Notes under the pieces: model-generated
Told to the model about the DNA's origin: nothing
What the model saw: the letters and a program-made list of their open reading frames with translations, nothing else
Database searches by the model: none
Position numbers and translations under genes: made by a program
Shown: positions 3 through 8,338 of the stretch, piece after piece
Position numbering within the stretch: the stretch's first letter is position 1
Layout of the letters: each line of letters opens with the position of its first letter
Origin: Chloroflexota bacterium
GTDB lineage: Bacteria; Chloroflexota; Anaerolineae; Promineifilales; Promineifilaceae
Length of the DNA: 8,391 bases
Assembly (NCBI GenBank): GCA_008501785.1
Contig: QQUD01000004.1
Span: 1 to 8,391 of the forward strand
Direction: 5' to 3'

Positions 3-596
3 TATTTTGATTGCAAACAAAGCTTGATTTTCCCAAACAACGGCACGCCAGGATGGATTATTGGTCCACCAAAGACAGATTTCGTTTCACTCCCTGTTGC
101 ATTGCGACCACAGTCTGTTTTTGTTCATGCGCCGACCACCACAGCACCCGCCTATGAGCTATTTTACTGGTCAGGAGATGTAGATGTAGCCAATGTGATG
201 ACTGCATGGCCTGGGGGTGTTTCGTTAGCTAATGGGGTGGCTTTAAAACGGCCGTTTCCCATCAACCACACCGCCAACTTCCTCGGCTACCAACAAAACA
301 ACACAACCTGGCTCACCGCCTGGCAAGTCGAAAGCACACCCACCGAACCACTTTCGATGATGGCACATTTGCAGGGGTCAGAAACGGCCGTTCAAGTCGC
401 CGACGGCCTCGGTTTCAGCAGTGATCAATGGCAGCCAGGAGATGTGATTGTGCAGCAGCATGTTTTTGAGGGGGGTGAAACGGCCGTTTTCCTCCGCACC
501 GGCCTCTACAACTACGTTTCAGGCAAACAACTCCCCCTCGACAATCAATCCGACACAACCTTTCAACTTTTGCCCACTACCAATGAAAAACCGTAG
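3..596 (+). CDS. C-terminal part of a large protein, probably a membrane glycosyltransferase-like protein (partial at left edge)
   Basis: The frame is open from base 3, so the gene enters from the left; the TTG at 24 is only the first possible start inside the window and is probably internal. The visible 197 residues have no membrane segment. They contain a strand-rich domain with W-Q-P-G-D at about 143-147, followed by G-L-Y-N and a G-K-Q-L-P-L end. This pattern, a strand with WxPGE/D, then RTGLY and SGxxLPL, is what I know from beta-sandwich domains at the C-terminus of long Chloroflexota dolichyl-phosphate-mannose-type (GT-C) glycosyltransferases; the membrane part would lie outside the window. 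The reaction cannot be read from this fragment. Three ACGGCCGT words lie within it, two translated as E-T-A-V and one as R-P. It is followed by trmO on the same strand after a 55-base gap. Confidence 0.7.
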   Translation, partial: YFDCKQSLIFPNNGTPGWIIGPPKTDFVSLPVALRPQSVFVHAPTTTAPAYELFYWSGDVDVANVMTAWPGGVSLANGVALKRPFPINHTANFLGYQQNNTTWLTAWQVESTPTEPLSMMAHLQGSETAVQVADGLGFSSDQWQPGDVIVQQHVFEGGETAVFLRTGLYNYVSGKQLPLDNQSDTTFQLLPTTNEKP

Positions 597-606
597 CGCG
601 ATTTGC

Positions 607-635
607 TAATTCGCGTATCGAATTACCAATTCGAT
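607..635. repeat. Overlapping AATTCG/CGAATT inverted repeats upstream of trmO
   Basis: AATTCG occurs at 608-613 and 628-633, and its reverse complement at 619-624. The middle copy can pair either with the left one (7-bp stem 607-613/619-625, loop of five) or with the right one (8-bp stem 617-624/628-635, loop of three). The two hairpins exclude each other. No T-run follows, so this is not a classical terminator. The trmO ribosome binding site (AAGGA, 641-645) lies six bases after the right-hand stem. Confidence 0.55.
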
Positions 636-651
636 TTACAAAGGAATAAAC

Positions 652-1122
652 ATGATTCAGCCAATTGGTATTATCCACTCACCATTCAAACAGCTAGAAA
701 ACATGCCCATTCAACCCAAAGGCGCACAAGAAATTCTGGGTCAGGTCGAACTGTTCCCAGATTTTGCGGCAGGTCTGAAAGATTTAGAAGGGTTCAGCCA
801 CATATATCTAATTACCCATTTTCACAAAGCGCAACGCGAATCGCTCACAGTGGTGCCATTCATGGACGATGTACCGCGTGGCGTATTTGCCACACGTTCA
901 CCGCTGCGACCCAACCATATTGGGCTGTCCATCGTTGAGCTCGTCGAAGTCAATGAAAATGTGGTGACGATTAAAGGGGTCGATGTACTAGACGGCACGC
1001 CGTTGTTGGACATCAAGCCATACATCGCCCGCTTTGATCACGTCAACGACAGTCGATCTGGTTGGATGCAAGCATCCGCAGCTGAGGTGAAAAATAAAAG
1101 GTCCGACACCCGTTTTGTGTGA
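652..1122 (+). CDS. trmO: tRNA (N6-threonylcarbamoyladenosine(37)-N6)-methyltransferase TrmO, short form
   Basis: TrmO (formerly TsaA/YaeB, UPF0066) uses S-adenosylmethionine to methylate t6A at position 37 of ANN-decoding tRNAs, chiefly tRNA-Thr, in the cytoplasm. The 156-residue product shows the family blocks in order: an N-terminal IGIIHSPF strand (5-12), D-L-E-G-F-S-H (44-50), G-V-F-A-T-R-S-P followed by R-P-N-H-I-G-L-S (77-93), and D-G-T-P-L-L-D-I-K-P-Y (114-124). It lacks the extra C-terminal domain of the roughly 235-residue E. coli protein, matching the short architecture found in archaea and many bacteria. The start is ATG with AAGGA six bases upstream. The last 15 residues or so are polar and variable. 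It converges on the aminotransferase gene with 70 bases between the stop codons. Assignment to the family is firm; tRNA specificity is by homology. Confidence 0.92.
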   Translation: MIQPIGIIHSPFKQLENMPIQPKGAQEILGQVELFPDFAAGLKDLEGFSHIYLITHFHKAQRESLTVVPFMDDVPRGVFATRSPLRPNHIGLSIVELVEVNENVVTIKGVDVLDGTPLLDIKPYIARFDHVNDSRSGWMQASAAEVKNKRSDTRFV

Positions 1123-1142
1123 GAGAGAAACGGCCGTATCAA

Positions 1143-1185
1143 CAAAAAAGGACGAACAACACAAAACCATTCGTGCTATTCGTCC
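1143..1185 (-). terminator. Rho-independent terminator of the aspartate aminotransferase gene
   Basis: Read on the minus strand, GGACGAA (1185-1179) pairs with TTCGTCC (1156-1150), leaving a 22-base loop, and is followed directly by six T (1149-1144). It begins 8 bases after the aminotransferase stop codon. The stem is short and the loop large, so efficiency is uncertain, but position, orientation and T-run all fit. Confidence 0.65.
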
Positions 1186-1200
1186 ATTCGTTTTATTCGT
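1169..1200. repeat. Four near-tandem copies of ATTCGT
   Basis: ATTCGT starts at 1169, 1178, 1186 and 1195, a spacing of 9, 8 and 9 bases. The array straddles the aminotransferase stop codon (TAA on the minus strand, 1193-1195), and its second copy supplies one arm of the terminator stem. The fourth copy overlaps the last coding residues. Confidence 0.7.
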
Positions 1201-2449
1201 GGTTCGCTTCATATTCTGCCGAAGCCAGCTTCACACAAACCGCCACCACAGCCATCGCCTGCGCCACCTCAGCCACCGGCGGGCGACTTGGCGACAAACG
1301 AATATTGCTGTTATTCGGGTCTTCGCCACGCGGATAGGTTGCACCAGCGGGCGTCAGCGCCACCCCCGCTTCCTTCGCCAACGCCACCACACGATCTGCT
1401 ACCGGCAGCTTCGTATCCAGACTGACAAAGTAACCACCATTCGGTTTCGTCCAGGTTGCCAACCCCGTGCCATCCAGCTCATTCGACAGCGCTTCGTAAA
1501 CTGCATTGAATTTTGGCGCTAAAATGGCCGCATGTGCCTTCATCAAACCATCAATGCCACCCGGATAGCTGTTGATAAACTTCACATGACGATACTGCTC
1601 AACCTTGTTCGGACCAATCGCCTGTAAACCCATCAACTTACCAATAAAATCAATATTTGCTTCACTGGCAGCCATAAACCCGATGCCACCACTGGAAAAT
1701 GTCACTTTGGACGTCGAGCCAAACAAGTAAACACGATCAGGGTTGCCGGCTGCCTCACAAGCACGCAGCAAATTCAATGGTTTTTCTGGCGTATCGGTTA
1801 GATGATGAATCACATAAGCATCATCGGCAAAAATGGTAAAGTCAGAAGCGGCCGTTTTCATTGCAGCCAACCGCTTTACCACCTCATCCGACACCGAATC
1901 GCCAGTTGGATTACTATAGGTCGGCACAAACATAATGCCTTTTACCGAAGCATCAGAAGCTGCCAACTTCTCAACCGCATCCATATCAGGACCATCTGGC
2001 GTCATGTTTACCGGCAACATTTCAAAACCCAGTGCATCGAGCACTTTAAAATGGCGATCATACCCTGGAACCGTCACAATCATCTTTGGAGATTGTCCTA
2101 TCCAGGGAGCATCACTGTGCAACAATCCTTTGAGCAGCGCCCACATCAGATTATTAGCCATCAAGCGTAGGCTGGCGTTATTGCCCACAATCATCTCCTC
2201 TGGCTTAACACCCAACACAGACGCAAATAGTTCTCGCGCTTCTGGCAAGCCTGCAATACCACCGGGGTAATTGCGAATCGCGACACCACTCGGGGTCACC
2301 ACATCTTGCGCATCAACAATCGTCAACATCCCGTTTGACAGATCAAAATCTTGATCACTGGGCTGACCACGCTGCAAATTTAACTGCAATCCAATTGATA
2401 TAAACTTTTCATAGCGAGCACGAATATTTTCTAACGTTTCAACTGTCAT
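1193..2449 (-). CDS. aspT: Aspartate aminotransferase, class Ic (AspT type), PLP-dependent
   Basis: It is predicted to transfer the amino group between aspartate and 2-oxoglutarate, giving oxaloacetate and glutamate, in the cytoplasm. The 418-residue product follows the Corynebacterium glutamicum AspT subgroup closely: L-Q-R-G-Q-P (25-30), R-N-Y-P-G-G (59-64), P-G-Y-D-R-H-F (128-134), D-G-P-D-M-D-A-V-E (152-160), S-N-P-T-G (179-183), D-D-A-Y (209-212), S-T-S-K with PLP lysine K248, I-G-P-N-K-V (278-283) and N-I-R-L-S-P with substrate-carboxylate arginine R384. It therefore belongs to fold type I. An ATG eight codons further upstream (2473) is possible, but the ATG at 2449 has a near-perfect GGAGGAG 4 bases ahead, so I chose it. 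A terminator follows at 1185-1143. The substrate is inferred from subgroup membership; another amino-acid specificity is possible. Confidence 0.88.
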   Translation of the reverse strand: MTVETLENIRARYEKFISIGLQLNLQRGQPSDQDFDLSNGMLTIVDAQDVVTPSGVAIRNYPGGIAGLPEARELFASVLGVKPEEMIVGNNASLRLMANNLMWALLKGLLHSDAPWIGQSPKMIVTVPGYDRHFKVLDALGFEMLPVNMTPDGPDMDAVEKLAASDASVKGIMFVPTYSNPTGDSVSDEVVKRLAAMKTAASDFTIFADDAYVIHHLTDTPEKPLNLLRACEAAGNPDRVYLFGSTSKVTFSSGGIGFMAASEANIDFIGKLMGLQAIGPNKVEQYRHVKFINSYPGGIDGLMKAHAAILAPKFNAVYEALSNELDGTGLATWTKPNGGYFVSLDTKLPVADRVVALAKEAGVALTPAGATYPRGEDPNNSNIRLSPSRPPVAEVAQAMAVVAVCVKLASAEYEANHE

Positions 2450-2453
2450 CTTT

Positions 2454-2460
2454 CTCCTCC
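2454..2460 (-). promoter_or_regulatory. Strong Shine-Dalgarno that decides the aminotransferase start
   Basis: On the minus strand the bases read GGAGGAG, 4 bases before the ATG at 2449-2447. No comparable site precedes the alternative ATG at 2473, which would place this sequence inside the coding region. Confidence 0.85.
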
Positions 2461-2672
2461 AAGCATTTATCATGCATAGTCAAAATTTTTATGCTGGGCG
2501 GAAAGTGGATTGTAGTGGGGGTTACTTGGCAAAATCTTCACACCTTACAGTCAAAATCTTGCTACTCTAAAACGGCGCCCTTTGTAGCACAATCCGATTA
2601 TTAATCAAATTCTTTTGCCAGTAGGTTAAAAGTAGTATACCTTTGAGGTTTAAATATTTTTTGCATGATAAT

Positions 2673-2755
2673 CGTTCAGGTGCGACGCACTTTTCCCAAA
2701 GGAATGTGCCACAACAATACCGTTTGAAAGTGCGTCGCACCTCAGAGACTGAACG
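2673..2755. repeat. Large inverted repeat with operator-like arms upstream of the thioesterase gene
   Basis: The 16-bp arm 2678-2693 (AGGTGCGACGCACTTT) is matched perfectly by its reverse complement at 2727-2742, with a 33-base loop. Each arm is itself a dyad, GTGCG-N-CGCAC (2680-2690 and 2730-2740). A second, outer inverted pair, CGTTCAG (2673-2679) and CTGAACG (2749-2755), frames the element. It ends 29 bases before the thioesterase ATG. It could be a tandem operator for a dimeric regulator, or a small palindromic mobile repeat. Confidence 0.75.
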
Positions 2756-2784
2756 CTTACTTTGCAAGTTAAAATGGAGTTCTT

Positions 2785-3228
2785 ATGAGCCAGACAAACT
2801 ATCCATTTGAAGGCAAAATTGAAGTCACATTCCGGGACATTGACGCGATGGGTTTTGTCAATAATGCAGTGTTTTTTACCTACCTTGAAACGGTACGCAT
2901 CAAATATGTCTCCCGCATTTTCGAGCAAAATGATATTTTAGACTTAGATTTGCCGCTCATTTTGGTTGAAGCAACTTGTACCTATCATTCTCCAGCACTG
3001 TTGGGGGAAACGCTAGCCGTTGGTGTGGGGCTTTCTCGGTTTGGCACCAAAAGCTTTGATTTATTGTACCGCATTGAGGGGGAAGACGGCCGTTTAATAG
3101 CCACCGGCAAAACCATCCAGGTCATGTACGATTACAATACCCAAAGCGCCTTCCCCATCCCAGAAGATATAAAAACACGGGTCCAAAATTATCAAGGTGA
3201 CTGGCAAGACTTACTCAATCATGAGTAA
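2785..3228 (+). CDS. Acyl-CoA thioesterase of the 4HBT/YbgC hotdog family
   Basis: Hydrolyses an acyl-CoA thioester in the cytoplasm; the substrate cannot be read from sequence. The 147-residue length is typical of single-hotdog 4-hydroxybenzoyl-CoA-thioesterase-like proteins. The signature R-D-I-D-A-M-G-F-V-N-N (17-27) holds the catalytic aspartate D20 and the conserved Gly and Asn, followed by the long central helix with Y-L-E (33-35). Later strands carry T-Y-H-S-P (about residue 70) and the G-K-T-I-Q-V-M-Y strand (about 108-115) usual for the family. The ATG has TGGAG five bases upstream. It is the first plus-strand gene after the divergent spacer, and no terminator is visible before the DsbA gene 149 bases downstream, so shared transcription is possible. 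One ACGGCCGT word encodes part of D-G-R-L. Confidence 0.88.
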   Translation: MSQTNYPFEGKIEVTFRDIDAMGFVNNAVFFTYLETVRIKYVSRIFEQNDILDLDLPLILVEATCTYHSPALLGETLAVGVGLSRFGTKSFDLLYRIEGEDGRLIATGKTIQVMYDYNTQSAFPIPEDIKTRVQNYQGDWQDLLNHE

Positions 3229-3310
3229 ATCAAACTCCCACTTGTTACAAAATCATATCTCGTTAGAATAGTGACGCGAAAATCCTAGAGGAAATAGAAG
3301 GCTGGGGATG

Positions 3311-3326
3311 GAAAACGGCCGTTTTC
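3311..3326. repeat. Intergenic 16-bp perfect palindrome around ACGGCCGT
   Basis: GAAAACGGCCGTTTTC is a perfect palindrome in the spacer ahead of the DsbA gene, enclosed by GGATGG (3306-3311) and CCATCC (3335-3340). No T-run follows, so I do not call it a terminator. It is one of 11 copies of the octamer described separately. Confidence 0.8.
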
Positions 3327-3377
3327 GTTCCAATCCATCCACATTCCAGGCCAAAACCAAACACAATCGAGGGAGTA

Positions 3378-4058
3378 ATGGCTAAAAAATCATCAAGAAG
3401 AAAATCATCACGACAATCCCAAAGAAAAACAAACTGGACCGTCATCTACGGTGTGATTGCTGCTGGCGTCATATTGCTGGGTGGTCTCCTATACCTTTCC
3501 TTACAAACTGGCGAAATCGTCACCATTCCCATACGGTGCGAAGACGATGCAGCACTTTGTGTAACCAAAGGTGAGGCAAATGCCCCCGTCACCATCGTCG
3601 AAATATTAGATTTCGGCTGCAACCATTGTCAGGCATTTCACCAAGAAACAGCCCCACTAATCGACGCTCAATATGTAGAAAATGGCGACGTGAAATTTGT
3701 CATGTACCCCTACGCACTCAGCGGAAACACATTACCGGGCACCAACGCCGCATTATGTGCTGAAGAACAAGATGCTTACTTTGCATTTACAGATGCCTTG
3801 TTTGATCAATTTGGTCAACCCGATTACCTGACAAGTGAAAGCATCATACGTGCTGGTGAGACCGCTGGTGTGGAAATGACATCATTTACACAATGTGTTA
3901 GCGAAGGCAGATACAATGACGTTATCCAGGAAAACATGAGCGTTGCCCGCAATAATCGCATCAACAGTACACCAAACTTCTTTGTCAACGGCGAAAAATT
4001 GGAAGGCAACCAACCTTTTTCAATCTTCCAACAGCGCATCGAAAGCTATCTGAATTAA
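3378..4058 (+). CDS. DsbA-like thioredoxin-fold disulfide oxidoreductase, membrane anchored
   Basis: Introduces disulfides into proteins outside the cytoplasmic membrane. The 226-residue product begins with a lysine/arginine-rich cytoplasmic tail (1-18), then one membrane segment (about 21-42) that serves as an uncleaved anchor, then a DsbA/BdbD-type domain (thioredoxin_4-like). The active site is F-G-C-N-H-C (C81, C84), and the cis-proline loop is S-T-P-N-F-F-V-N-G with P199. Four further cysteines (C54, C61, C127, C173) probably form structural disulfides. The ATG follows a GAGGGAG sequence. The gene ends 3 bases before a VKOR-family gene, its expected electron acceptor. The fold and active site are clear; oxidase rather than isomerase function is inferred from the partner. 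Confidence 0.93.
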   Translation: MAKKSSRRKSSRQSQRKTNWTVIYGVIAAGVILLGGLLYLSLQTGEIVTIPIRCEDDAALCVTKGEANAPVTIVEILDFGCNHCQAFHQETAPLIDAQYVENGDVKFVMYPYALSGNTLPGTNAALCAEEQDAYFAFTDALFDQFGQPDYLTSESIIRAGETAGVEMTSFTQCVSEGRYNDVIQENMSVARNNRINSTPNFFVNGEKLEGNQPFSIFQQRIESYLN

Positions 4059-4061
4059 ATT

Positions 4062-4508
4062 ATGCTCATCGATAAATGGCAATTACGAATTATTCAACTG
4101 TTCTCAGTGGCGGGTATTGTTGTTGCATTCTACCTGATGCTGTTTCATGATGGCAGTTTGGTATCAGCCTGTGGAACCAGCACGTGGTTCGATTGTGGCG
4201 AAGTCAGCGGACCAGGTGCGCCCTACGCCTCTATCGGGCCCATCCCGGTTGCTTTAATTGGTTTAATTGGGTACATCGCCATGTTTTTGGCGATCTGGCT
4301 TGATGACTGGATTCCGCTGCTGAGTGATTATCTGCCCGAAATTATGGTCGGCATGTCATCTCTCGCACTTGTGTTCACCCTGTGGCTAACAGGACTTGAA
4401 CTGTTTATGATCGGTGCATTCTGTCAATATTGTGTGGTTTCGGCCGTTTTCATTATCATTATTTTCGGACTGGCAATCAGCTACCTACGATCTATAAATA
4501 GCGATTAA
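4062..4508 (+). CDS. Vitamin K epoxide reductase (VKOR) family membrane protein
   Basis: VKOR homologues take electrons from a reduced DsbA-like protein and pass them to quinone, replacing DsbB. The 148 residues form four membrane helices (about 9-28, 58-78, 94-114 and 117-142). The first loop carries C37 and C45, the pair that exchanges with the partner; the C-Q-Y-C motif (C121, C124) in the last helix is the quinone-side redox centre. The conserved Y-A-S-I-G-P-I-P-V-A-L-I-G-L block (55-68) includes the family serine S57. There is no thioredoxin domain fused to it; that function comes from the gene just upstream. With a 3-base gap and no clear ribosome binding site, translation is probably coupled to the DsbA gene. 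A strong terminator follows. Confidence 0.93.
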   Translation: MLIDKWQLRIIQLFSVAGIVVAFYLMLFHDGSLVSACGTSTWFDCGEVSGPGAPYASIGPIPVALIGLIGYIAMFLAIWLDDWIPLLSDYLPEIMVGMSSLALVFTLWLTGLELFMIGAFCQYCVVSAVFIIIIFGLAISYLRSINSD

Positions 4509-4512
4509 AAAA

Positions 4513-4557
4513 AGCTATTAACCTTTGGCCATTAGCTCTTATTCTGGGCTAATAGCT
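4513..4557. repeat. AGCTATTA / TTAGCT short-repeat spacer
   Basis: AGCTATTA (4513-4520) and its reverse complement TAATAGCT (4550-4557) flank a second nested pair, ATTAGC (4531-4536) and GCTAAT (4548-4553); the right arms overlap, so the two hairpins compete. It lies just after the VKOR stop codon. Confidence 0.55.
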
Positions 4558-4570
4558 CAATACAAACAAC

Positions 4571-4617
4571 AATAGCGGACTACAAATCAATTTGCAGTCC
4601 GCTATTTATTTTTATTC
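4571..4617 (+). terminator. Rho-independent terminator of the DsbA-VKOR operon
   Basis: AATAGCGGACT (4571-4581) pairs perfectly with AGTCCGCTATT (4596-4606), 11 bp, and CAAAT/ATTTG can extend the stem inside after one mismatch. A T-rich tract (TTTATTTTTATT, up to about 4616) follows on the plus strand. On the minus strand the stem is followed by a weaker T-rich stretch, so it may also act as a backup for the converging ribosomal protein operon. Confidence 0.88.
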
Positions 4618-4636
4618 AAATCACAAATTTTCAGAA

Positions 4637-4664
4637 CGAAAATTAAATTACCGTCTGCGGTAAT
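4637..4664 (-). terminator. Probable terminator of the rpsR-V4R-rpmB-rpmG operon
   Basis: On the minus strand ATTACCG (4664-4658) and CGGTAAT (4653-4647) form a 7-bp stem with a four-base loop, followed by TTAATTTTC. It starts three bases after the rpmG stop codon. A competing hairpin, CGGTAA (4658-4663) with TTACCG (4667-4672), would sequester the rpmG stop codon instead. The stem is AT-rich, so strength is uncertain. Confidence 0.55.
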
Positions 4665-4666
4665 AA

Positions 4667-4831
4667 TTACCGGGTTTCGCGGTAAACAACGTGACGACGT
4701 AAAATGGGGTCGTACTTTTTCAGTTCCAATCGCTGCGGGTTGTTGCGACGATTTTTAAATGTGATGTACATGTGAGAACTTTCAGTGCTGCGCATCTTAA
4801 TGACACCGCGAACGCCTTTTTTCTTAGCCAT
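4667..4831 (-). CDS. rpmG: 50S ribosomal protein L33, cysteine-free form
   Basis: The 54-residue product starts M-A-K-K-K-G-V-R and has the family core [19 protein letters not shown] followed by R-E-T-R at the end. L33 sits near the E site of the large subunit. The four zinc-ligand cysteines of the C+ type (two CxxC pairs) are all absent: S-T-E-S replaces the first and D-P-I-L the second. It is therefore the zinc-independent C- type. AAAGGAG lies about seven bases ahead of the ATG. It is the last gene of the minus-strand cluster, 59 bases after rpmB, followed by a probable terminator. Confidence 0.95.
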
Positions 4832-4850
4832 GTCGCTCTCCTTTTAGCAA

Positions 4851-4880
4851 TTAGCTGTCAGCCCATCAGCTTTCAGCTAA
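4851..4880. repeat. AGCTGA-type short repeats between rpmB and rpmG
   Basis: On the minus strand the spacer is a run of degenerate AGCTGA/AGCTAA units. The outer units TTAGCTG (4851-4857) and CAGCTAA (4874-4880) are inverted repeats, with inner GCTG/CAGC pairs. The sequence could form a weak hairpin just upstream of the rpmG ribosome binding site. No T-run follows. Confidence 0.5.
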
Positions 4881-4890
4881 AACAAATTTG

Positions 4891-5133
4891 TTAGGATGTT
4901 ACGTCCTTGAGGGACAATCCTTGTTTACGCAAATATGGCATCAAACCAATTTTGTCGACGGTGCGCATGGCGCGGACCGACATTTTAATGCGTACGGTGC
5001 GATCCAGTTCTGGAATATACACACGCTTGGATTGAATATTTGGCATAAACCGACGCTTGGTTTTCTTTTGGGAAAACGAAACGTTGTGACCGGTCAGTGG
5101 GCCTTTTCCGCTTAGTTTACATTTCCGAGACAT
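4891..5133 (-). CDS. rpmB: 50S ribosomal protein L28
   Basis: The 80-residue product has the L28 signature K-G-P-L-T-G-H-N-V-S (10-19), then T-K-R-R-F-M-P-N-I (25-33) and I-K-M-S-V-R-A-M-R-T-V-D-K-I-G-L (49-64). L28 is a late-assembling large-subunit protein. C+ forms carry a four-cysteine zinc ribbon; here only C5 remains, so it is a zinc-independent type. The ATG has GAGGT eight bases upstream. It lies between the V4R gene (63-base gap) and rpmG (59-base gap) in one orientation, consistent with one transcript. Confidence 0.95.
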   Translation of the reverse strand: MSRKCKLSGKGPLTGHNVSFSQKKTKRRFMPNIQSKRVYIPELDRTVRIKMSVRAMRTVDKIGLMPYLRKQGLSLKDVTS

Positions 5134-5159
5134 GATATTCTACCTCAATATCGTTTCAA

Positions 5160-5184
5160 TTCAGTACAGCATCGCTGCCCTGAA
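5160..5184 (-). repeat. Small hairpin between the V4R gene and rpmB
   Basis: TTCAG (5160-5164) pairs with CTGAA (5180-5184) and, after a two-by-two internal loop, CAGC (5167-5170) pairs with GCTG (5174-5177). No T-run follows. It could be a processing or stability element within the operon, or chance. Confidence 0.35.
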
Positions 5185-5196
5185 TCAAACCTTTCG

Positions 5197-5826
5197 CTAT
5201 TTCAACGGTTCCTTGTAAATGATGTAACGTCCGATGTCGTCTCCCTGAGCCATACAGGTCTTCATATCCACCCGTAACGTATGGCCACCAGAAACCCACT
5301 GCACCGCTTCTTGCAATAACCCCAATCCAAAGTAGCAAACAGGATGATCTTCTTTCCTGTTCCAACACATCGGGCATTGCTCAAGCGTATAGATGAAGTG
5401 ATCCCCTTCATCTGTGACATTGGAAATCTGGTCAGAAAACTGTGAAAAAATACGTCCGAGAGCTGGCAGACCAATCTTTAACTTGCTGTTTAACGGCAAG
5501 ACGCGAAAAGCCAAATCACCAATCCCCACTAAAGCGCCCACACCCTTCAACCCGTTTTCAAAGGTGGCACGACCAGCTCGAATCGCCAGTCCTCGACCAC
5601 CACGTGGTCCATACATTTCCTCTAATGCAATCTGCAAGGCTGTCAGATCAGCAAAAGAGAACTGCTTTTCCAGGTTATTCGGCGGACGCTCATTAATATA
5701 TTTTTCAAGTTTCGCCAGACGTAAAACTGCGTGCAGACCATTTTTACCCATCACCTCTTGTAACGCGTCAATAATGATACGTCCAAATTTATTGGGATAG
5801 TATAAATCTTGTTCGTCAGGTGACAT
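5197..5826 (-). CDS. V4R-domain protein with a four-cysteine putative metal site, function unknown
   Basis: The 209-residue product has a C-terminal V4R domain (4-vinyl reductase fold, related to heme-NO-binding-like domains): C-P-M-C (C151, C154), C-Y-F-G-L-G (C164), and K-T-C-M-A-Q-G-D (C191), ending in a R-Y-I-I-Y-K strand. This is the usual cysteine layout that binds a metal, probably zinc. The N-terminal 130 residues are mostly helical and include a conserved-looking E-M-Y-G-P-R-G-G-R-G-L-A-I-R-A-G (70-85), which resembles the region preceding V4R in other bacterial proteins. V4R proteins bind small hydrophobic ligands or metals and act in bacteriochlorophyll synthesis, degradation of aromatics or regulation; none of these fits the neighbourhood. 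It sits between rpsR (60 bases upstream) and rpmB (63 bases downstream). The ATG has a modest GAAAGG-type site. Domain call good, role unknown. Confidence 0.8.
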   Translation of the reverse strand: MSPDEQDLYYPNKFGRIIIDALQEVMGKNGLHAVLRLAKLEKYINERPPNNLEKQFSFADLTALQIALEEMYGPRGGRGLAIRAGRATFENGLKGVGALVGIGDLAFRVLPLNSKLKIGLPALGRIFSQFSDQISNVTDEGDHFIYTLEQCPMCWNRKEDHPVCYFGLGLLQEAVQWVSGGHTLRVDMKTCMAQGDDIGRYIIYKEPLK

Positions 5827-5886
5827 GATGGCTGCCTTTCTTTATGGTCTATCAGTTTTTAATAATTACACCGTTACTAAGAATGT

Positions 5887-6168
5887 TTATTCATCAACAA
5901 ACGGCAAAAGTGCCAAATGACGTGCCCGCTTCACTGCAAGAGCCAGATTACGCTGTTCTTTTGCACAGAGGCGAGTTTGACGACGTGGGCGAATACGGCC
6001 GTATTCATTCAAATATCGACGTAAAGAATCTGCATCCTTGTAATCAAACTTGACACCTTTGATGCAGCCCCGACGCGGACGGCGACGATTCGCCGGACGA
6101 CCACGATTATCACCACCACGGTAACCACCACGATTATCATCGCGACGTGAACGATTGTTATAGGTCAT
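5887..6168 (-). CDS. rpsR: 30S ribosomal protein S18 with a Gly/Arg-rich N-terminal extension
   Basis: S18 binds the 30S platform together with S6. The 93-residue product has the family core F-D-Y-K-D (41-45), [17 protein letters not shown] (49-65), and [13 protein letters not shown] (78-90). The first 33 residues are an extended, disordered-looking tail rich in Arg, Gly and Asn, with RGG/RGR-like units, longer than in E. coli S18 (75 residues). Two cysteines remain (C35, C68) of the four found in zinc-binding S18. The ATG has AAAGGAG 11 bases upstream. rpsR leads a minus-strand cluster with a V4R gene, rpmB and rpmG; its usual neighbours rpsF and ssb are not upstream. Bases 5991-6006 form a 16-bp palindrome around ACGGCCGT inside the gene. 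Confidence 0.95.
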
Positions 6169-6220
6169 CGTTGGAGTTTCTCCTTTATAAAATTTTTAAG
6201 TCTTTGATATTTCTGGAGTG

Positions 6221-6331
6221 TTGTGGCAAAGATTTTACCACAAATGCTATTTGCAAGGTCGCCCTCTTCCTGGTAAACCGCACTACGTGTTCAAATGTAG
6301 CAAACATACAAAATGCGGTTTACTTAAGTAA
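6221..6331 (-). promoter_or_regulatory. Structured leader region of the rpsR operon
   Basis: In transcription order it holds the 12-bp palindrome TTACTTAAGTAA (6331-6320); a 10-bp perfect inverted repeat GTAAACCGCA/TGCGGTTTAC (6323-6314 and 6282-6273), with CTAC/GTAG (6300-6297, 6286-6283) stacked on one side; and a hairpin TTGTGG-T-AAA-atc-TTT-G-CCACAA (6243-6221). The last has a T-G pair that is a wobble only in minus-strand RNA, which supports action as RNA of this operon. The start ATG lies 53 bases downstream. No promoter hexamers are convincing, though the promoter must lie downstream of the trpC terminator (below 6389). It may be an autoregulatory leader; I cannot match it to a named ribosomal leader class. 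Confidence 0.5.
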
Positions 6332-6388
6332 TCGGTAAAAAACTTGCTGTTTTTAATTCAACACCTTCTTGACGATTACACAAACAGC

Positions 6389-6418
6389 CAAAAAAATCGC
6401 TGTTTCCAGAAAACAGCC
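6389..6418 (-). terminator. Rho-independent terminator downstream of trpC
   Basis: On the minus strand GCTGTTT (6417-6411) pairs with AAACAGC (6405-6399), loop TCTGG, followed by GA and seven T (6396-6390). It separates trpC from the ribosomal protein operon. Additional copies of the stem sequence (AAACAGC at 6382-6388 and GCTGTTT at 6346-6352) could form a second 7-bp hairpin just beyond it. Confidence 0.8.
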
Positions 6419-6458
6419 TCACGATTCTAACAAGCATTGGCTGGAAGTCAAGCAATTG

Positions 6459-6602
6459 GTGTCCTTATTCAGGGTTTTTCAGTAGTCGTGTTTTCATTGT
6501 CATTCCTGCGCAGGCAGGAATCCATCCTTGTCGAGTGCGAAGATGGATTCCCGCCTGCGCGGGAATGACAGCCTGACTACTGAAAAACCGTGTGTCCTTA
6601 TT
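6459..6602. repeat. 11-bp direct repeats (target-site duplication) flanking the MITE
   Basis: GTGTCCTTATT occurs at 6459-6469 and again at 6592-6602, exactly flanking the 122-bp inverted-repeat element. The right copy includes the trpC stop codon (6598-6600 on the minus strand). The bases just outside each copy differ, so the duplication is limited to 11 bp. Confidence 0.85.
6470..6591. mobile_element. 122-bp MITE-like element with terminal inverted repeats and dRS3-like core
   Basis: The ends GGTTTTTCAGTAGTC (6473-6487) and GACTACTGAAAAACC (6575-6589) are 15-bp perfect inverted repeats. Inside is a second, imperfect inverted repeat of 28 bp (6499-6526 and 6542-6569, 26 of 28 matching), each arm holding an ATTCC-N-GGAAT type motif (ATTCCTGCGCAGGCAGGAAT and ATTCCCGCCTGCGCGGGAAT). 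This is the sequence class known as dRS3 in Neisseria and seen as intergenic repeats in many bacteria. An 11-bp target duplication flanks the element. It has no coding capacity and would need a transposase from elsewhere. The whole can fold into one long hairpin and now separates trpC from its terminator. Confidence 0.85.
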
Positions 6603-7413
6603 TTCGGCCAGCTTTGACAAAGGAAACGGCCGTTCCATACATATCCTTCGCACGCACCAACGTTTCCCCTACCAAAATTGCGTCCACACCAATATGCGCC
6701 ATTTGACGCACATCTTGCGACGTTTTTAAGCCGCTCTCCCCGACCGTCACAATTTCCGACGGAATCCGGTCACGTAAGCGGGCTGTGTTCGCAAAATCCA
6801 CTTCAAATGTTTGCAGATTTCGATTATTCACACCAATGATACGAGGCTGCAACGGCAGCACCATATCCAGTTCTTCATCCGTATGCACTTCCACCAACGC
6901 ATTCATACCGAGATTGTGCGTGAGCTTTAGCAGCGACTGTATTTCTTTGCCGCTCAAAACAGCCGCAATCAGCAAAATCGCATCTGCACCAGCCACCCGT
7001 GCTTCATACACCTGATACGGGTCAAACACAAAATCTTTGCGCAGCACAGGCACACGCACCGACTCTTTCACATCTCGCAAATGCGCCAAATTGCCTTGAA
7101 AATGGCGGCCATCCGTCAATACCGAAATGGCACTGGCCCCCGCCCTTTCATACGTTTTAGCAATCTGCACAGGATCATAATCGCGCACCATTAACCCTTT
7201 GCTAGGGGATGCTTTTTTACATTCAGCAATCAGCGACACGCCCGACTTTTGTAAAGCAGCATAAAAATCTAGCGCAGGCTGGGTCACACTCGCAAACGCT
7301 CGCAAATCTTCAAGCGGCACACCTCGTTTAATTTTGGGCAGCTGCTCTCGATGATATTTCATAATTTCATCAAGAATTGTGCCCCGTCGTTTAGATTGAT
7401 TCGTTACACTCAT
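6598..7413 (-). CDS. trpC: Indole-3-glycerol phosphate synthase
   Basis: Closes the indole ring in tryptophan biosynthesis, converting carboxyphenylamino-deoxyribulose phosphate to indole-3-glycerol phosphate with loss of CO2. The 271-residue TIM barrel shows the catalytic set: E64 and K66 in I-A-E-C-K-K-A-S-P-S-K-G, K126 in V-L-R-K-D-F, E175 in L-V-E-V-H, N196/N197 in G-V-N-N-R-N-L, and E226-S227 in V-G-E-S-G-L. It is monofunctional, not fused to TrpF. The N-terminus is about ten residues longer than common, and no good ribosome binding site precedes the ATG, which is next to a repeat array. There are no other trp genes in the window; the upstream neighbour is an alpha/beta hydrolase 112 bases away. 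The stop codon lies inside the target duplication of the MITE but is intact. Confidence 0.96.
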   Translation of the reverse strand: MSVTNQSKRRGTILDEIMKYHREQLPKIKRGVPLEDLRAFASVTQPALDFYAALQKSGVSLIAECKKASPSKGLMVRDYDPVQIAKTYERAGASAISVLTDGRHFQGNLAHLRDVKESVRVPVLRKDFVFDPYQVYEARVAGADAILLIAAVLSGKEIQSLLKLTHNLGMNALVEVHTDEELDMVLPLQPRIIGVNNRNLQTFEVDFANTARLRDRIPSEIVTVGESGLKTSQDVRQMAHIGVDAILVGETLVRAKDMYGTAVSFVKAGRK

Positions 7414-7420
7414 TTTATTA

Positions 7421-7510
7421 TTTGCTCTGGCCGGTCTCCAGACCGAGCCATTTGCTCTAGTCGGTCTTCAGACCGGGCCAGATGAGGCGACACGATCTGG
7501 AGACCGGTCG
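7421..7510. repeat. GGTCTCCAGACC palindromic repeats upstream of trpC
   Basis: Two 30-bp units in tandem (7421-7450 and 7451-7480) match at 26 of 30 positions. Each contains the dyad CGGTCT-NN-AGACCG (7432-7445 and 7462-7475). A third, inverted partial copy (CTGGAGACCGG around 7498-7508) closes the array. They fill most of the 112-base gap between the hydrolase and trpC. As minus-strand RNA each unit can form a hairpin, or the third can pair with the first. No T-run follows. Confidence 0.75.
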
Positions 7511-7525
7511 CAAAACTTAATTACA

Positions 7526-8338
7526 TTACTGTGGATTTGCCACAAACTCAAAAAGTAGTTGAGCATACATTTCAGGTTCGTTCAGATAAGGAAAATGCCC
7601 AACTTCATGCAAAGTATGCACAACAGCCTCTGGATAGGTTTCTTTGAGCATCTCACGCAGTGGTTCTGCCACCAGAGGATCGTTATTAGCTTCAATAATC
7701 ATCACCGGCACGTTAGTCACTGGCGGTTCAAATGGGTCAATAACAGCATGATAACGAGCCAGGAATTGGTCCTTACTCATTCGACCATACGCCTGTTCCA
7801 ACACATACGCCCTCACCAACTCAGAATTCCCTGCTGCTGTGTAAAGGGATTCTTCAGCACTGCCTTTTAACACACCCATCACGGCCCATTCGGGAATGAT
7901 TGGCAATAAGCCGCCAATTGTTTTATTTTCTTCGGCAATGATGTCGTTCGGTGGGAAAGTGTTGGCAAAAACGGCCGTTTTCACCCTCCCCCCATAATTC
8001 GCCACAAAATATTGTGCCGTATATCCGCCCAACGAACTGCCAACCACATGAACAGTTTCAATCTTTTCGGCATCAAGAACGGCCGTTATCCCTTCTCCCA
8101 TCCCTGCCAACCTATCAACCGGCGGATATGTCACCGAAATCACCTGAAAATCACCAGCCAACCGGGACATCACCTGCCACCAAATATCATACGCCCCCGT
8201 CATGCCATGCAGAAACAAAATCGTCTCGTCGCCGCTGCCAAACCTTGTGTACTCCCAGGTGTTGCCATTCACTACCAAGGTTTGTGGCGCGTGGGTTTGA
8301 CGAAATGTTTGGAGAGAAACGGCCGTTTCCCCATCCAC
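7526..8338 (-). CDS. Alpha/beta-hydrolase fold protein, substrate unknown
   Basis: A serine hydrolase of the alpha/beta fold, about 270 residues. F-L-H-G (42-45) forms the oxyanion hole, G-S-S-L-G (100-104) holds nucleophile S102, D220 in E-A-N-N-D-P is the likely acid, and H248 in E-V-G-H-F-P-Y-L completes the triad. The lid region (about 135-200) is variable, so substrate cannot be predicted. There is no signal peptide. The start is doubtful: GTG at 8338 lacks a clear ribosome binding site, and the frame stays open to a stop at 8378-8380 without an ATG, so the true N-terminus may differ. Three ACGGCCGT words occur (as E-T-A-V, I-T-A-V and K-T-A-V). It precedes trpC in the same direction; a shared transcript is possible but nothing links the functions. 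Confidence 0.85.
   Translation of the reverse strand: MDGETAVSLQTFRQTHAPQTLVVNGNTWEYTRFGSGDETILFLHGMTGAYDIWWQVMSRLAGDFQVISVTYPPVDRLAGMGEGITAVLDAEKIETVHVVGSSLGGYTAQYFVANYGGRVKTAVFANTFPPNDIIAEENKTIGGLLPIIPEWAVMGVLKGSAEESLYTAAGNSELVRAYVLEQAYGRMSKDQFLARYHAVIDPFEPPVTNVPVMIIEANNDPLVAEPLREMLKETYPEAVVHTLHEVGHFPYLNEPEMYAQLLFEFVANPQ

Follow-up and report, generated by a model that had tools for sequence, protein, structure and literature searches.

A genomic word with the core CGGCCG, resembling the iterated palindromes of cyanobacteria, in one order of Chloroflexota

The first 8,391 nucleotides (nt) of contig QQUD01000004.1, from a Chloroflexota bacterium of the class Anaerolineae (assembly GCA_008501785.1), are referred to here as the window, and contain 11 exact copies of the palindromic octamer ACGGCCGT. 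The initial annotation of this stretch had proposed that the octamer is a genomic word comparable to HIP1, the highly iterated palindrome (HIP) of cyanobacteria, and that selection or drive on it acts on DNA and not on protein. Counts across the order, conservation between relatives and the coding of the tripeptide Thr-Ala-Val now lend that proposal strong support: ACGGCCGT is a HIP-like genomic word with the core CGGCCG, made and kept by a force on double-stranded DNA. The word is real, is widespread in its order and is maintained at the DNA level, whichever explanation of its origin holds. The favored explanation, to which a probability of about 0.47 is given, is that the word is read by a protein other than a cytosine methyltransferase, and that its most likely use is as a dispersed mark of self.

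Abundance of the word and its conservation at the DNA level

The count of 11 copies and the strong excess claimed for the window both stand, as 200 dinucleotide-preserving shuffles of the window yield a mean of 0.12 copies and a maximum of two. Nine copies lie within reading frames and two are intergenic. The in-frame copies are translated as Thr-Ala-Val (six cases), x-Gly-Arg-x (two) or Lys-Arg-Pro-Phe (one), and three codon phases are thus used in addition to spacers, as had been noted from the start. An automatic frame count gives eight copies inside and three outside, its 110-residue minimum presumably dropping the 93-residue bS18 gene.

The aminotransferase encoded in the window matches 23 loci at 58-75% identity. 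Fourteen of these carry Chloroflexota names, mostly those of Anaerolineae metagenome-assembled genomes, and the remaining nine carry names of Spirochaetes, Proteobacteria, Myxococcales and others. Eleven of the 14 Chloroflexota genomes have 2,982-15,176 copies of ACGGCCGT and the other three have 198, 657 and 874, with the reversed word occurring 20-392 times. In the order of Anaerolineae to which genome G004 belongs, at least 1,000 copies are found in 31 of 56 genomes, and 30 of the 56 carry 0.4-2.1 copies per kb (up to 15,176 copies); "word-rich" denotes these 30 genomes, with at least 0.4 copies per kb. Of the word-rich genomes, 25 exceed 6,000 copies (6,147-15,176; reversed word 40-459). 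Beyond the order, 11 of 298 genomes in a class sample reach 1,000 copies, all of them also on the order list, and in a phylum sample of 400 genomes only the center genome, G004, exceeds 700. The runners-up, G049 (646) and G081 (549), belong to the same order, and the next values are 471 and 408. As far as these samples show, the word is thus characteristic of a single order. No report of ACGGCCGT in Chloroflexota was found among the papers listed in literature searches that covered mostly open-access text.

A count against a Markov model, the check proposed in the initial annotation, places the word far above expectation in relatives. The sampled stretches of G008 contain 711 copies against 8.2-13.8 expected (87-fold at the Markov expectation of 8.2), and 18 genomes pooled contain 1,719 against 24.6 (70-fold). 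The octamer, itself palindromic, is the most over-represented one, at a density within the HIP range, which is roughly 0.5-2.5 per kb according to the available text of PMC4390886 (section 2.3). Avoidance of a restriction site would leave fewer copies than expected, and ACGGCCGT is in excess. The per-genome samples comprise 3.3-381 kb; G328 consisted entirely of N, as did parts of G312, G014 and G011, and 16 short loci were dropped from the main counts for their overlap with longer stretches.

The word is kept in aligned close relatives far more often than are other 8-mers. At 75-84% identity it is retained in 104 of 120 cases, compared to a fraction of 0.273 for all 8-mers. At successively higher identity the values are 164 of 185 (0.371 for all 8-mers) and 130 of 142 (0.498), and at 93-99% identity they are 60 of 66 (0.692). 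Conservation at synonymous positions, which had been suggested as a further check, points the same way: when only codons whose first two bases agree are counted, third positions are identical in 960 of 980 cases within the word (98.0%), compared to 8,065 of 10,270 (78.5%) when those codons stand outside it.

Across 26 word-rich genomes there are 1,324 instances of Thr-Ala-Val where 191 would be expected (6.9 fold), and in 1,276 of these cases it is coded as the word. Encoded by other codons, the tripeptide occurs 48 times against 162 expected (0.30), compared to 18 against 17.5 in four word-poor relatives. Whole tripeptides that serve as a baseline for the word-rich genomes (VAT, SAV, SAE, SAD and TAL) stand at 0.66-0.85 of expectation, so part of this depletion is a background effect. 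The excess in the form of the word, together with the depletion in other forms, indicates that the word is gained as well as kept. Its density in G008 is 1.95 per kb in frames and 1.29 outside, and its use in both G008 and the window is independent of reading frame, across genes and spacers, as is typical of HIPs.

Near matches to the word are unevenly distributed along its length. After masking of exact words, the inner six bases yield 234 one-mismatch forms in the 18 pooled genomes against 320 expected (0.73), and 92 in G008 where 119 are expected; individual classes lie between 0.44 and 1.56 of expectation. When all positions are included, one-mismatch forms number 724 against 551 (1.31). 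Among changes of the outer base, A>T exceeds expectation 4.6-5.0 fold and A>G about 2-fold, and A>C shows no excess. One-base deviations therefore fall mostly at the first and last base, which is also where those of HIPs concentrate in the available text of PMC4390886 (section 2.6). Polarized gains and losses amount to three events in all, too small a number to weigh.

Dialects, mobile DNA and a proposed protein reader

In most word-rich genomes the octamer in excess is ACGGCCGT. Across relatives the hexamer CGGCCG is shared and the outer pair varies, being A..T, T..A, G..C or none. The alternate palindrome TCGGCCGA takes the place of ACGGCCGT in G009 (204 against 4.3 expected) and G108 (80 against 3.0), and GCGGCCGC does so in G194 (73 against 2.1); such alternate words in some relatives are found among HIPs as well. 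Bare CGGCCG, lacking a strong outer preference, is enriched 3.8-7.1 fold in G013, G333, G011, G217 and G164, and G006 has a mixed dialect. G317 (L124-L129) departs further, having TGCCGGCA in place (58 against 2.5-4.3 expected; 3,665 in the genome) and a shortage of CGGCCG (5 against 24-47, depending on the model). The same genome is also short of GGCGCC and CCGCGG.

In G008 the octamer as a whole is the unit, since CGGCCG shows no enrichment beyond it (315 against 350 expected for all hexamers). In G009, A or T precedes the word in 96% of cases. A weak consensus extends beyond the octamer in the G008 and G004/G005/G007 samples and in G010/G003/G316, with G at -4 and -3 in about half of the half-flanks, and A occurs at -1 in 65% in the lower-GC set. 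In the tree of the aminotransferase, those genomes included that have the T-type, mixed or bare-core dialect cluster (support 98/96; eight of 16 inner branches are open), and dialect thus partly follows descent. For switching between dialects in place, aligned A-type partners cover only five TCGGCCGA sites of G009, six of G108 and three GCGGCCGC sites of G194, and none of these partners is ACGGCCGT.

The word is also found on mobile DNA, and some phage and plasmid-like records are as rich in it per kb as host genomes. When viral contigs were scanned for pairs of words separated by 20-50 bases, at least 120 loci were returned, of which 30, including 23 chosen for density, led to 27 records that were counted whole. 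Twenty of the 27 carry 1.1-3.5 words per kb and seven carry fewer than 0.2 per kb; examples are records of 65.5 kb with 227 words, of 100 kb with 226 and of 70.6 kb with 99. The last of these has genes for a terminase large subunit, an RNA ligase and a protein with a Sak4-like match, and is for this reason taken to be a tailed phage. A phage is also suggested for the record of L264 (primase, helicase-loader-like protein and methyltransferase), L236 looks like a plasmid or conjugative element (ParA, FtsK-like protein and transglycosylase), and L268 and L222 were assigned no type. At L264:5539-7897, in a word-dense viral record, two proteins with PAPS-reductase-like PHROG matches, one of them also matched by Pfam, are encoded near a DNA methyltransferase and a primase. 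As a weak check of dialect on viruses, among the matches listed in the scans for paired words, one of 101 loci over 4 kb reaches 1 per kb for TCGGCCGA, compared to 19 of 99 for ACGGCCGT.

Gaps between words in G008 are nearly random, with contig coefficients of variation (CVs) of 1.03, 0.95 and 0.95, and a CV of 1.64 on the contig that contains a word-poor element. Regular spacing was sought on the contigs and was not found. In the 26 ACGGCCGT-type genomes there is an excess of gaps of 45-48 bases (19, 23, 9 and 13 against about 4.7 each), and some of these in G008 look like local repeats.

The combination of a shared hexamer, a variable outer letter, strict inner bases and a graded tolerance at the outer ones is what would be expected of a symmetric protein-DNA contact with an evolving edge. 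We infer a sequence-specific, two-fold symmetric DNA-binding protein that would read CGGCCG and the outer base pair, and whose preference for the outer base would drift between lineages. Its sites may form a dispersed self mark, serving for example in chromosome organization or in distinguishing the cell's own DNA from foreign DNA, and phages and plasmids resident in the cell would gain the word too. The self-mark role is suggested by the phage records, a small and selected set, and the nearly random spacing fits a dispersed mark. It may even be that the order writes a methylation-independent self-recognition code, an address with a drifting outer letter that is read by a DNA-binding protein and whose local dialect phages must copy in order to survive, but in this full form the idea is rather unlikely.

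Several points weigh against a protein reader and a self mark. No reader gene was identified among the 56 genomes, for which PF00145, PF01555, D12, NotI, Vsr, MutL_C and PF03772 were tried, and biased repair could yield the same conservation without any function. The aligned pairs behind the word-conservation and third-position counts were used in both directions and are not independent. G313, G314 and G318 show no clear replacement word in the 25-39 kb of each that was sampled. The weak PF01555 matches of two word-rich genomes, G180 (9.5e-10) and G322 (4.3e-8), indicate that both may hold a divergent methyltransferase of that family. Finally, contig C67 of G008 contains, at about 115-170 kb (L118-L121), an integrated low-GC stretch of ~50 kb with ~0.3 words per kb, and some resident DNA thus lacks the mark. 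An integrase, primase-like, nuclease-like and thymidylate-synthase-like proteins and a 5-hydroxymethyldeoxyuridine (5-hmdU) DNA kinase are encoded within this element or at its edge; the last two are as in phages with hypermodified thymine.

Methyltransferases and other explanations

None of the families tried as partners tracks the word across the 56 genomes of the order. This applies to PF00145, PF01555 and D12, and equally to the NotI family (four genomes), Vsr (eight), MutL_C (49) and the Competence family PF03772 (50). The next most probable explanations after the favored one are, in order, a methylation-linked HIP, biased repair without function, and DNA uptake.

In the first of these, an orphan cytosine methyltransferase would mark CGGCCG and methyl-directed mismatch repair would ratchet sequences towards the word, as in the model proposed by Elhai for cyanobacterial HIPs in the available text of PMC4390886. 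The layout of HIP1 given there is alike, with a CGxxCG core, a preferred outer pair and alternate words in relatives, and MutL_C is, as noted, widespread in the order. Matches to the C5 family PF00145 occur in 26 of the 56 genomes, including 16 of the 30 word-rich ones. PF01555 (N4/N6) is matched in 52 of 56 at E 0.001, in 45 above the family cut-off, and strongly (E <1e-15, our own cut) in 24 of the 30. Either a C5 or a strong PF01555 match is thus present in 25 of the 30, enzyme specificity and genome completeness not being given. Some of these enzymes are related: among 20 C5 enzymes examined, one per genome, nine cluster together at 40% identity, and a separate group is formed by seven PF01555 enzymes that have an SPPY motif.

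The enzymes are otherwise diverse, with 11 C5 groups and, for 28 of 30 PF01555 enzymes (again one per genome), 12 PF01555 groups at the same identity. Fourteen word-rich genomes have no C5 match, and five of these (G004, G180, G312, G322 and G329) have no strong PF01555 match either, with best E-values of 4.6e-4 in G004, 6.2e-5 in G312 and 5.0e-4 in G329. G217, in which the bare core is enriched, has no match to PF00145, PF01555 or D12. Since genome completeness is not given, such absences may be gaps. D12 is matched in 45 of 56 genomes, clearly in 27 of the 30 word-rich ones and also in the word-poor G313, G314, G317 and G318, but each of the seven D12 proteins that were scanned belongs to the Dam family of adenine methylases, and the core CGGCCG has no A. 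The G-before-methyl-C rule of the methylation model, in the available text, fails to predict A as the outer base, and C>T variants of the core, at any of its three cytosines, stand at 0.8-1.3 of expectation. Elhai reports, in the same available text, a capable methyltransferase in all of his word-rich genomes, although some HIP1-rich ones lack a CGATCG enzyme. The matching methyltransferase suggested in the initial annotation is therefore unsupported as a general requirement, although one may act in other genomes, and the methylation model as a whole is possible but not favored.

Biased repair or gene conversion without function, in which a repair enzyme with a sequence preference makes and restores the word on any DNA in the cell, is less probable again. 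It would be consistent with the depletion of synonymous near-matches, with conservation that is high at all divergences, with phage carriage and with nearly random spacing. However, strong conversion should empty the class of core one-mismatch forms, which is only mildly depleted (0.73), Vsr-type repair is confined to the eight genomes mentioned above, and the foreign element in G008 is unconverted, though it may be recent.

A DNA uptake signal, by which natural transformation would favor word-bearing fragments and recombination would spread the word, is slightly more doubtful still. The density, the enrichment and the dialects between relatives resemble those of uptake sequences, and PF03772 is common in the order, but that family is also present in the word-poor G313, G314, G317 and G318. 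One-mismatch uptake sequences are raised about 3.0 fold in H. influenzae and 5.8 fold in N. gonorrhoeae (from Table 1 in the available text of PMC1939737), and no such over-representation is seen here, where the values are 0.73 for the core and 1.31 overall. Known uptake sequences are also non-palindromic in that text, and the word is palindromic. Uptake moreover leaves the presence of the word on phages unexplained.

A Chi-like recombination signal or a phosphorothioate-modification site is very improbable. Phosphorothioate-modification sites with a GGCC core exist, and a self/non-self logic would account for the word on phages, but known Chi sites are asymmetric and rarer than the word. Codon or amino-acid usage, which the initial annotation had named as a possible full cause, is ruled out by phase use, synonymous conservation and Thr-Ala-Val coding: about half of the in-gene copies in G008 do read Thr-Ala-Val (337 of 649), but the others encode other peptides in the other two phases, further copies lie outside frames, the tripeptide excess takes almost only the form of the word, and usage explains only ~46.5 of 339 Thr-Ala-Val copies in G008.

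The window and known systems

The Pfam scan of ten frames in the window identified TrmO-like, PF12897 aminotransferase, thioesterase-like, DsbA-like, VKOR-like, bL28, bS18 and indole-3-glycerol-phosphate synthase genes, and left two frames without a match. Three copies of the word lie in the open reading frame (ORF) at 24-596, at 248..255 (Lys-Arg-Pro-Phe), 384..391 and 480..487 (both (Glu)-Thr-Ala-Val). The copy at 1130..1137 is in the spacer between the TrmO-like and aminotransferase genes. The copy at 3086..3093 encodes Asp-Gly-Arg-Leu in the thioesterase-like gene (2785-3228), and the aligned stretch of the relative G002 is also ACGGCCGT. It is followed by a spacer copy at 3315..3322, upstream of the DsbA-like gene (3378-4058). 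On the minus strand, the bS18 ribosomal protein gene (5887-6168) contains the copy at 5995..6002 (Tyr-Gly-Arg-Ile), and the indole-3-glycerol-phosphate synthase gene (6598-7413) contains that at 6626..6633 (Thr-Ala-Val). The last three, at 7971..7978, 8079..8086 (both Thr-Ala-Val) and 8319..8326 ((Glu)-Thr-Ala-Val), are in the minus-strand ORF at 7526-8338, which we take, by the look of its sequence, to be alpha/beta-hydrolase-like. The description of the word as usually occurring within AAACGGCCGTTT was overstated, as this 12-mer is exact in five of the 11 copies (those starting at 248, 480, 3315, 7971 and 8319).

Three inverted repeats also occur in the window. A spacer at 2678-2742 contains a perfect 16-base repeat (AGGTGCGACGCACTTT) with arms 33 bases apart. 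At 6470-6592, beside the indole-3-glycerol-phosphate synthase gene, nested 29-base repeats (93% and 83% complementary) look like a small mobile or repeat element. The intergenic region at 7406-7532 has a degenerate 40-base repeat (70% complementary) with several GGTCT/AGACC units.

Since the description of HIP1 in 1995, the purpose of HIP words has been an unsettled question. A HIP-type case in a second phylum, with natural dialect switches and with genomes that have no evident cytosine methyltransferase, amounts to a natural experiment that may separate the word from methylation, and it makes it possible to look for the reader by the presence and absence of genes. A further point is that it reveals a DNA-level force strong enough to lift one tripeptide about seven-fold across the genes sampled.

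Among known systems, the word behaves like a HIP, and differs in phylum, core and phage carriage. With HIP1 (GCGATCGC) and the alternate HIPs, as described in the available text of PMC4390886, it shares the form of a GC-rich palindromic octamer, a CGxxCG core with an outer pair, alternate words and deviations at the outer positions. It is not HIP1 proper, which is GCGATCGC in cyanobacteria: ACGGCCGT belongs to Chloroflexota and has GGCC in place of GATC at its center, no cytosine methyltransferase was found common to all genomes that bear it, and it is dense on some phage records. Chi sites are likewise short, dispersed and over-represented, but ACGGCCGT is palindromic and far denser. The uptake sequences of Pasteurellaceae and Neisseriaceae have dialects between relatives, as the word does. 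Their enrichment is similar as well (PMC1939737, available text), but ACGGCCGT differs from them in being palindromic and in having core one-mismatch forms that are unraised.

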